From positions 930,001 to 994,000 of the forward strand of contig NZ_QWDC01000002.1 of assembly GCF_003432115.1 (NCBI RefSeq): 64,000 nucleotides of DNA. Reading direction: 5' to 3'. The position numbers were made by a program, and so were the translations under genes. Of the stretch, positions 3,842-4,961 are shown in pieces. A model generated the notes under the pieces. It saw only the letters and a list, made by a program, of their open reading frames with translations. It was not told where the DNA came from and made no database searches. The stretch is from Mucilaginibacter conchicola. GTDB lineage: Bacteria > Bacteroidota > Bacteroidia > Sphingobacteriales > Sphingobacteriaceae. Within the stretch, counting starts at the first letter, position 1. Every line of letters starts with the position of its first letter.

Positions 3842-4023
3842 TGTCTTTGGATAATATCGAACACCGAATTCCGATTTAAGAATGATGAAATACACCTTCA
3901 ATATTCATTATTCAACATTTGATGTTCGTTATTATAAATTTTAGAAATTCTATTATAAAAGTAAAGCTCCTGATGGGCAGGAGCCTTTACTAACCAATTA
4001 TAAACCTAAATTATGAGAAGAGC

Positions 4024-4139
4024 TGTAGGAGAAGGGGTCGAACCTTCAAGGAGTGGTTATTCTTATTGCTAAGAGTTTCCCATTATTCTCCGCCACCGGG
4101 ACAAGGAGGTGTGTCTGCCAAAAATTTCACCATCCTACA
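4024..4139 (-). tRNA. Class II tRNA-like RNA, copy 1 (identity undetermined)
   Basis: Read on the minus strand this folds as a tRNA. It has a 7-bp acceptor stem (TGTAGGA with TCCTACA), a Leu-like D arm (GTG...CAC with a 14-nt loop containing GG), and a perfect 5-bp T stem GAAGG/CCTTC with a TTCGACC loop. The anticodon arm is CCTCC-TTGTCCC-GGTGG, which has a central T-T mismatch and would place GUC in the anticodon. The variable region is very long: a GGAG/CTCC stem encloses a second hairpin (CTTA...TAAG). Total length is 116 nt, far above the usual 75-90. No CCA is encoded. The class II body with an Asp-type triplet makes ordinary decoding doubtful. The gene may encode a diverged tRNA or a structured ncRNA. 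Confidence 0.6.
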
Positions 4140-4220
4140 GGATATAAGTCTGAAACCTTTAGTCATTAGCCTGAAGTCGACTTGCGACTCCGGACTTAGT
4201 ACTTAAGACTTAGAACTTGC
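4140..4220. repeat. Degenerate short-repeat spacer between the tRNA-like genes
   Basis: The 80-base spacer is built from imperfect copies of AGTCTGAAG, GACTTAG and CGGACTT words in both orientations. The same word family makes up 35113-35210 inside mqnB. It resembles mobile-looking intergenic repeat DNA, and nothing in it suggests a gene. Confidence 0.5.
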
Positions 4221-4331
4221 TGTTGGGGAAGGGTTCGAACCTTCAAGGAGTAGTTAGCCCGCTTCGGGTTTCCTATGCTCTCCGCCACCGGGACAAGGAG
4301 GTGTGTCTGCCAAAAATTTCACCACCCAACA
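4221..4331 (-). tRNA. Class II tRNA-like RNA, copy 2 (identity undetermined)
   Basis: This has the same architecture as copy 1, 81 bases away. The acceptor stem TGTTGGG/CCCAACA differs from copy 1 at two base pairs, and both partners change together. The inner hairpin of the variable arm is CCCG-AAG-CGGG here and CTTA-GCAA-TAAG-like in copy 1, again with pairing kept. By contrast the stretch from the D arm through the anticodon arm to the GGAG of the variable stem is identical in the two copies. Compensatory change in stems plus an invariant anticodon arm argues that both are functional RNAs. The length is 111 nt. The gene ends 150 bases before the divergent Lrp gene. Confidence 0.6.
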
Positions 4332-4484
4332 ATGTTGTTTTTGTTTAAAGAACGCTTAGCAATTAGCAATCGCTTAATACAAAAGTAAAGGAGCTATCGT
4401 TTTCTTGCAAATATTTCAACAAAATATTTTTATTTTTAGTTTTATTTTAATTAAACTTGTGTATAAATAAAGATATTTGAAATT

Positions 4485-4961
4485 ATGCCTCACAGGAAAC
4501 CTCAAAATTTAGAAATTGATAATCTGGATATTCAGATTTTATCCATTTTAATGAAAAATGCAACTACTCCGTACACCGAGATTGCAAAAGAACTAATCGT
4601 TTCCGGCGGTACCATACACGTGCGCATGAAGAAACTGGAGGAGATGGGCGTTATAAAAGGTGCCAGCCTGGAAGTTAATCCGCAGAAATTAGGGTATGAT
4701 GTTACTGCCTTCCTGGGTATCTTCCTTGAGAAAGGGTCGCAGTATAACGATGCCGTGGCACAATTGAGAAAAATACCTGAGATTGTTGAGCTGCATTACA
4801 CCACCGGCAGCTGGAGCATTTTCGCTAAAATTGTTTGTCATGATACCAACCACCTGCGCGAGGTTTTGAACGAGCAGATCCAAAGCGTATCGGGCATACA
4901 GCGTACCGAAACTTTCATCTCTTTAGAAGAAAGTATTAAACGCCAGATCAGTTTAGATTAA
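4485..4961 (+). CDS. Lrp/AsnC family transcriptional regulator
   Basis: A cytoplasmic DNA-binding protein of 158 aa, the standard Lrp length. The N-terminal winged helix-turn-helix (residues about 12-60, LDIQILSILMKNATTPYTEI onward) is followed by the RAM effector-binding domain (about 75-150, with the GSWSIFAKIVC and IQRTETFISLEE segments). Lrp proteins form octamers and usually respond to amino acids. The neighbours do not show its target. A hairpin terminator lies 24 bases after the stop. The upstream 150 bases to the tRNA-like genes are AT-rich and hold its promoter. Confidence 0.92.
   Translation: MPHRKPQNLEIDNLDIQILSILMKNATTPYTEIAKELIVSGGTIHVRMKKLEEMGVIKGASLEVNPQKLGYDVTAFLGIFLEKGSQYNDAVAQLRKIPEIVELHYTTGSWSIFAKIVCHDTNHLREVLNEQIQSVSGIQRTETFISLEESIKRQISLD

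Follow-up and report, generated by a model that had tools for sequence, protein, structure and literature searches.

We describe a family of tRNA-like RNAs, represented by two gene copies in Mucilaginibacter conchicola, whose members share a conserved fold and conserved identity determinants, commonly adjoin a divergently oriented asnC-type gene, and co-occur with the gene for GatB. We propose, with a probability of roughly 0.6, that this pair of RNAs is a dedicated non-decoding adaptor for tRNA-dependent asparagine synthesis, which AspRS would charge with aspartate, GatCAB would amidate, and an AsnC-type regulator would control.

Both tRNA-dependent asparagine synthesis and non-decoding tRNAs are already known, and we know of no dedicated RNA for the former. 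In the open-access literature we found no description of the present RNA family, which may be described elsewhere. The non-decoding tRNAs of Firmicutes, namely the peptidoglycan tRNA-Gly and tRNA-Other, are kept for jobs outside decoding; compared with the family presented here they belong to another lineage, carry another amino acid and have no giant variable arm. As set out in PMC4206432, asparagine is made on tRNA-Asn by a non-discriminating AspRS together with GatCAB in Deinococcus, Thermus, Staphylococcus aureus, Bdellovibrio and Legionella. The 2014 survey reported in that article counts 68 genera with GatCAB, GlnRS and AsnRS, 18 of which, including some Bacteroidetes, are without asparagine synthetase, and it suggested that asparagine is synthesized on tRNA-Asn (PMC4206432).

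Results

The two RNAs in the window

The window, i.e., the whole stretch of 64,000 nucleotides that was analysed (contig NZ_QWDC01000002.1, positions 930,001 to 994,000), contains two tRNA-like RNAs on its minus strand, both of which form complete cloverleafs and carry G at position 73. The promoter-proximal copy A, which is supported by covariation, occupies positions 4221..4331 (111 nt; 132.9 bits against the covariance model R1 and 112.1 bits against the broader model R2), with the discriminator G at 4220 and the anticodon GUC at 4294..4292 in its sequence. The distal copy B occupies positions 4024..4139 (116 nt; 128 bits against R1), with the discriminator G at 4023 and the anticodon GUC at 4102..4100. 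The gap between the copies is 81 nt, and a DNA search counts two copies of the RNA in the source genome. The acceptor stems (TGTTGGG/CCCAACA and TGTAGGA/TCCTACA) are unlike at pairs 4-69 and 7-66 with pairing complete in both, and the inner hairpins of the variable arms are unlike in sequence. Between the two copies no base differs from the D arm through the anticodon arm, a segment that includes the anticodon loop TTGTCCC, which gives the anticodon GUC, and a T-T mismatch in the anticodon stem.

Several of these features had been pointed out in an original prediction made from the letters of the window, which described a tRNA-like pair of 116 and 111 nt set 81 bases apart, two differing acceptor pairs with full pairing kept, unlike inner hairpins in the variable arms, and a D-arm-to-anticodon-arm segment, T-T mismatch included, that the copies share letter for letter. 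All of them hold on the minus strand, and so does the Asp anticodon on a class II body, where the anticodon is GUC, the D arm is Leu-like and the variable arm is long. A possible anti-Shine-Dalgarno role was considered for CACCTCCTT, a sequence in the window copies that we take to be that of the 16S 3' end; it was rejected because other families keep the stem via CCAGC/GCTGG and CCCGC/GCGGG.

Detection by tRNA finders and folding

ARAGORN called neither copy, and at the gathering cut-offs of Rfam the window yields just its two ordinary tRNAs, with copies A and B absent; the standard Leu or Ser tRNA that would have spoken against the original prediction was returned by neither program. When the Rfam threshold is relaxed, copy B reaches 26.3 bits against RF00005 (cut-off 29) and copy A is unlisted, and among the 12 distant members scanned against RF00005 three pass (L239, 40.3 bits; L238, 38.9 bits; L240, 31.5 bits). 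Folding of the single sequences with exact ends gave z values of -0.28 and -0.02, no better than shuffles (0.79 and 0.67 with ends one or two bases off), and the lowest-energy folds contain the acceptor and T arms without the anticodon arm of the cloverleaf. The case for the cloverleaf is consequently built on comparison, which yields a 7-bp acceptor stem, a D arm with GG, a 5-bp anticodon stem, a variable arm, and a 5-bp T arm with a TTCRA loop.

The ordinary tRNAs of the source genome give 43 matches over the RF00005 cut-off and form a near-complete set, which includes tRNA-Asp(GUC), tRNA-Asn(GUU) and five Leu isoacceptors. The idea that the RNAs supply a missing tRNA was rejected on account of this near-complete set and its tRNA-Asp(GUC). 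Four genes for tRNA-Cys(GCA) are present in it as well (G000, C1:1201148-1201217, C1:1201237-1201307, C1:1440767-1440837 and C10:251575-251645); their bodies have diverged, and two of the genes score low (46.8 and 45.5 bits).

Distribution of the family

Homologues, on whose existence the original prediction hinged, occur throughout the genus. Matches were found in 142 of 149 Mucilaginibacter genomes and in all 117 of good quality (completeness of 90% or more, contamination of 5% or less). An exact 32-nt core of the RNA is present in 94 stretches of public genomes, mostly titled Mucilaginibacter; a few titles say only Bacteroidetes and one says Pararcticibacter. We gathered 110 distinct complete copies (6 incomplete copies were dropped) and picked 34 references, 33 of which were aligned, L041:3-127 being left out (125 nt, with a longer arm). 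R1 is the covariance model built from this 33-sequence alignment. With this model, strong matches, at E of 1e-20 or lower, turn up in at least 14 of the 25 genera of Sphingobacteriaceae; among 295 Bacteroidia genomes, at least 50, representing at least 19 families, have a long-armed match of no less than 105 nt. Weaker R1 matches of 79-90 nt, which judging by their length are ordinary class II tRNAs, were excluded from membership. The broader model R2 splits 80 chosen genomes cleanly, with 44 matching at E 1.2e-19 or better and 36 having nothing better than 1.1e-11.

In one genome (G152) five copies of the RNA stand in tandem at a spacing of 150 nt (L273 201-916), with further copies elsewhere in that genome. 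Family members are also found in two viral contigs, namely L339 (positions 2753-2904; IMG/VR contig IMGVR_UViG_3300022750_000005) and L340 (positions 1691-1842; IMGVR_UViG_3300023103_000009), with 80 and 80.7 bits against R2. In both, A1-U72 replaces U1-A72 and the insert with UUGACCAC is present. An Erf-like ssDNA annealing protein is among the products of L339, which suggests that a member of the family is carried by a phage. The exact 32-nt core has no match in viral contigs, and a similarity search of plasmid and phage records gave no match.

Covariation and conserved positions

In the alignment of the 33 close relatives, which was made from sequence only, 10 of the 31 pairs change on both sides. 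The class-wide alignment, A3, comprises 52 members from 47 of 58 sources (E up to 1e-12), near-copies and the weak members L219, L270 and L272 being omitted. Here both bases change in 21 of the 31 pairs, and 97.8% of cells are paired, compared with 52-60% in a control where the partner is slid by 1-3 columns; since the members were fitted to the model's structure when they were aligned, these figures lean towards that structure. The compensatory change that had been read from the two window copies is borne out by both counts, and the wide family proposed as a check at the outset does exist across Bacteroidia, its members having covarying stems and a conserved anticodon loop.

Members in A3 are 107-195 nt long with a long variable arm, and their acceptor and T arms have 7 and 5 pairs, neither 8/4 nor 9/3. 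Three elements are invariant among the 52 class-wide members, namely U1-A72, G2-C71 and G73 (52/52 each), and the anticodon with position 38 is nearly so (G34 51/52, U35 52/52, C36 52/52, C38 51/52). Position 33 is U in 43 of the 52, G in 6 and C in 3; at position 37 pyrimidines (47 members) far outnumber purines (5). At position 10 the counts are G 20, A 24 and U 8 (G in 33/33 close relatives), and pair 11-24 is U11-A24 in 46 members, C-G in 5 and U-G in 1, with A72 in all 52. The T-T mismatch of the anticodon stem is kept in 33/33 close relatives; class-wide, 17 of 52 have no standard pair at this place and 35 have one. Two loose patterns mark the variable arm, AAA on the 5' side (50/52) and a motif resembling CUAA on the 3' side (51/52). 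An insert with UUGACCAC occurs in 17/52, chiefly in long members, and a nearly invariant stretch of GGGUUGACCAC is found in the long variable arms of 15/52 (e.g., L255, L258 and L269).

One RNA (L256 201-315) has the anticodon CUC instead of GUC, i.e., C34. Its genome, G625, is the only AsnA-bearing RNA-positive genome among the 80 chosen, and the substitution looks like decay, in a single case.

Determinants for AspRS and GatCAB

The determinants of bacterial tRNA-Asp listed in PMC9976931 are G73, G10, G34, U35, C36 and C38; the article describes G1-C72 and G2-C71 as strictly conserved in bacterial tRNA-Asp and calls G1-C72 crucial. According to the same source, U1-A72 confers amidation on Asp-tRNA-Asn, and amidation of tRNA-Asp is blocked by G1-C72 and U20a (PMC9976931). 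The RNA family carries G73, G34, U35, C36 and C38 of the AspRS set, and in G73, GUC, C38 and G2-C71 it is like bacterial tRNA-Asp. It departs from tRNA-Asp in having U1-A72 (52/52) in the place of G1-C72, G10 in 20/52, a mostly pyrimidine position 37, a giant variable arm and a Leu-like D arm. The element associated with GatCAB, U1-A72, is present in 52/52, the two virus-borne copies having A1-U72. In the source genome tRNA-Asp has G1-C72 and tRNA-Asn has U1-A72, so that the RNA unites an Asp-type anticodon loop with an Asn-type end. Judged by these letters, the conserved positions fit AspRS plus GatCAB, and the giant variable arm may hinder either enzyme.

Co-occurrence with GatB

If the RNA needs GatCAB, genomes that bear it must have GatCAB. 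We compared 80 genomes (44 RNA-positive and 36 RNA-negative) that were hand-picked by RNA status and quality rather than drawn at random. The set was fixed ahead of any look-up of GatB or the other genes; members or doubtful members left out of it include G320, G526, G535, G558, G598 and G717. The presence of GatCAB was scored by GatB only (TIGR00133). GatB is present in 44/44 RNA-positive genomes versus 19/36 RNA-negative ones.

As genomes that lack GlnRS need GatCAB in any case, the sharper test lies within the GlnRS-bearing genomes (49 of the 80 over the cut-off), in which GatB is dispensable for Gln-tRNA. AsnRS is over its cut-off in 79 of the 80 genomes, so GatCAB is likewise dispensable for the Asn-tRNA of translation. 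Among the GlnRS-bearing genomes, GatB is found in 31/31 RNA-positive versus 1/18 RNA-negative genomes (Fisher 2.8e-12, kinship ignored). The GlnRS-negative rest have it throughout (13/13 RNA-positive and 18/18 RNA-negative), G588 being counted here with a fragmentary GlnRS match of 173 bits. On the GlnRS tree, the RNA and GatB each change 6 times; well supported branches provide 5 independent pairs, each of which either goes in the predicted direction or is a tie. The sign test on these pairs gives p of 0.0625 to 0.125, where 0.05 is unreachable with 5 pairs. Within one genus, G211 has both the RNA and GatB and G168 has neither, with GlnRS in both; a second same-genus contrast, G626 (RNA and GatB) versus G457 (neither), also involves a difference in GlnRS.

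The lone exception to the rule is G453, which has GlnRS and GatB and in which R2 saw no RNA. This genome encodes a 1106-aa frame (L334 2804-6124) where GatB (TIGR00133, 359 bits) is fused to AspRS; the AspRS part is complete and bacterial (TIGR00459, 647 bits), and a gatA-like gene stands directly before the fused frame. The fusion thus itself ties GatB to aspartate. Another genome, G473, shows no AsnRS over the cut-off (best E 1.4e-27), no GatB and no RNA; it is a draft of about 460 contigs at 97% completeness, in which a gene may have been missed.

Promoter, terminator and AsnC neighbour

The RNA pair would be transcribed from a likely promoter at 4380..4410 on the minus strand, TTG-N20-TAnnTTTG (TTGCAAGAAAACGATAGCTCCTTTACTTTTG), which is presumably of the Bacteroidota type. 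The pattern recurs upstream of relatives: 28 of 41 loci have TTG N17-24 TAnnTTTG in the 170 bases that precede the RNA, compared with a mean of 1.3 and a maximum of 6 in 200 Markov-resampled controls and with 2 for the opposite strand. An A/T-rich inverted repeat, AATATTT-CAACA-AAATATT (4410..4428), sits at the upstream element of the promoter and is a candidate operator, and several relatives have similar A/T-rich stretches upstream of the RNA. Downstream of copy B there is an intrinsic-terminator-like hairpin of 10 pairs with a T-rich tail (3963..3987, minus strand); the scan for the terminator pattern found 1 versus a mean of 0.4 in shuffles.

Divergent from the RNAs, a gene on the plus strand (4485..4961) encodes an AsnC-type transcription regulator (Pfam AsnC_trans_reg and HTH_AsnC-type). 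Its NCBIfam scores are 181 bits for NF008384 AsnC, under the cut-off of 227, and 57 bits for Lrp, and its best PDB match is E. coli AsnC (2cg4, E 3.4e-39). An AsnC-type gene adjoins the RNA, upstream and divergent, in 28 of 41 RNA loci from 15 families, and the next commonest neighbour family in an all-against-all comparison accounts for 6/41 loci. By eye, nothing common was seen around the 13 loci that lack AsnC, and an AsnC homologue is absent from the four AsnA-bearing stretches that were read (L331, L332, L333 and L336). The E. coli genes asnC and asnA diverge from one another, just as the regulator gene here diverges from the gene that it adjoins; the partner here is an RNA gene, however, and not asparagine synthetase A. 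Since AsnC is divergent in both arrangements, the RNA occupies the place of the asparagine synthetase gene. AsnC of E. coli activates asnA, and asparagine lessens this activation, as stated in PMC8707732.

Asparagine synthetases

AsnA is present in 3 of the 80 genomes and an AsnB-superfamily gene over the cut-off in 69, including 37 of the 44 RNA-positive ones, so that the RNA route is often just one candidate for making asparagine. The seven RNA-positive genomes with neither AsnA nor AsnB over the cut-off (G152, which is the genome with tandem copies, G165, G172, G211, G443, G677 and G723) do have GatB and AsnRS; weaker AsnB-like matches among them are those of G677 (E 1.9e-64) and G723 (E 6.3e-51). 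Both synthetases are likewise missing over the cut-off in 3 of the 36 RNA-negative genomes (G153, G158 and G504). The 11 genomes lacking AsnB over the cut-off were named from best E-values, in agreement with the tally of 69/80.

In the source genome AsnA was not found, and there are three AsnB matches, the best of which, at 259 bits, falls short of the 499 required for AsnB proper. This best AsnB-like gene sits in a polysaccharide-type cluster with glycosyltransferase-like and transporter-like genes. Genomes like G152 have two matches with a best E of 9e-14, which suggests that the other two matches of the source genome may be distant amidotransferases.

Discussion

Proposed function

We propose that AspRS would read the GUC anticodon, C38 and G73 and load the RNA with aspartate, that GatCAB would read U1-A72 and amidate the aspartate to asparagine, and that the asparagine would then be set free or passed on outside the ribosome. 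Release is the weakest step, for which slow hydrolysis, a deacylase or a transfer may be envisaged. The divergent AsnC would sense asparagine and control the RNA promoter, as AsnC does with asnA in E. coli.

An RNA with the anticodon GUC that bears asparagine would be harmful if it took part in decoding. U33 and a purine at position 37 are near-universal in decoding elongator tRNAs. Because U33, purine 37 and the modest variable arm of decoding tRNAs are relaxed or lost in the family, we infer a use outside the ribosome; all three departures (a looser position 33, a pyrimidine at 37, a giant variable arm) would fit an RNA that is kept off it. Of the options offered in the original prediction, a non-decoding structured RNA is probably right, but the fit to AspRS plus GatCAB had not been considered there.

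The proposed pathway is like the tRNA-Asn route described in PMC4206432 in that a U1-A72 RNA would be loaded with aspartate and amidated by GatCAB. As presented in that source, the tRNA-Asn route likewise occurs in genomes with AsnRS, some of them with GlnRS, and explains the retention of GatCAB. The two differ in the carrier, which in the tRNA-Asn route is the decoding tRNA-Asn(GUU), with a relaxed AspRS, whereas here it would be a separate RNA of class II shape with a GUC loop. With an AspRS-type GUC loop on a separate RNA, relaxation of AspRS would not be needed.

Alternative explanations

Asp- or Asn-RNA could be made as proposed and serve instead as a donor for a non-ribosomal product, i.e., in modification of the envelope, of lipids or of peptides. 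Non-decoding tRNAs elsewhere feed peptidoglycan bridges, and such a donor would share the same determinants, the same link to GatB and a loop that looks non-decoding. No transferase gene recurs beside the RNA in the 41 loci, however, and the control by AsnC, if real, points to the free asparagine pool, which leaves the donor role unlikely. We also think it improbable that the RNA is regulatory, a tRNA mimic controlled by AsnC which would bind AspRS and GatCAB or report on how active they are, and whose purpose would not be charging. The giant structured variable arm with its conserved inner motifs and the AsnC neighbour would suit a mimic. Against this, the acceptor end, G73 and U1-A72 are kept in 52/52 members, which suggests that the 3' end is used, and GatB accompanies the RNA in 44/44 genomes.

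We consider it very unlikely that, as the original prediction had suggested, SerRS or LeuRS charges the RNA; G73, A72 and U11-A24 disfavour such a class II tRNA, which might be akin to the serine allo-tRNAs with GUC. The RNA does resemble bacterial tRNA-Leu in the pattern of its D arm, the long variable arm and the two unpaired bases before the T stem; it is unlike tRNA-Leu in G73, in GUC and in its length of 107-195 nt versus 81-86 nt for the Leu tRNAs of the source genome. The bacterial Leu set in PMC9976931 lists A73, at odds with G73 in 52/52, and the Ser set lists C72 and C11-G24, at odds with A72 in 52/52 and U11-A24 in 46/52. G73 together with a long arm is said to be read by SerRS, and GUC is a common anticodon of allo-tRNAs (PMC7609411), which are odd class II tRNAs as well. 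Allo-tRNAs, as portrayed there, are charged by SerRS and have acceptor and T arms of 8/4 or 9/3 pairs, in contrast to the 7/5 arms found here, and the RNA is without C72 and mostly without C11-G24. Charging by SerRS or LeuRS would also leave the fixed GUC, C38, U1-A72, the link to GatB and the AsnC neighbour unexplained.

That the RNA is an elongator which reads Asp codons with Asp or Asn, i.e., for programmed missense, would account for the anticodon GUC and is highly unlikely: the source genome has an ordinary tRNA-Asp(GUC) within a near-complete tRNA set, position 33 is not U in 9/52 members and position 37 is not a purine in 47/52. The doubt expressed at the outset that this is an ordinary elongator is therefore well founded, U33 occurring in only 43/52 and purine 37 in only 5/52. 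A degraded, functionless tRNA pair, which could explain the silence of ARAGORN and single-sequence folds no better than shuffles, can be practically dismissed in view of matches in 117/117 good genomes of the genus, strong covariation, and loop positions that are nearly invariant class-wide.

Conclusions

The RNA of the source genome escapes both ARAGORN and the Rfam cut-off. On the balance of the sequence comparisons, we judge it somewhat more probable than the contrary that a chimeric tRNA, with an Asp-type loop, an Asn/Gln-type first pair and a giant arm, acts as an RNA cofactor of asparagine biosynthesis under AsnC feedback in much of Bacteroidia. If this is true, the gene controlled by AsnC would be an RNA gene in the place of an asparagine synthetase gene, and the RNA would explain why GatCAB is retained in many Bacteroidota that have both GlnRS and AsnRS. 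It would also mean that an RNA serves these bacteria as a carrier for making an amino acid, apart from the genetic code.
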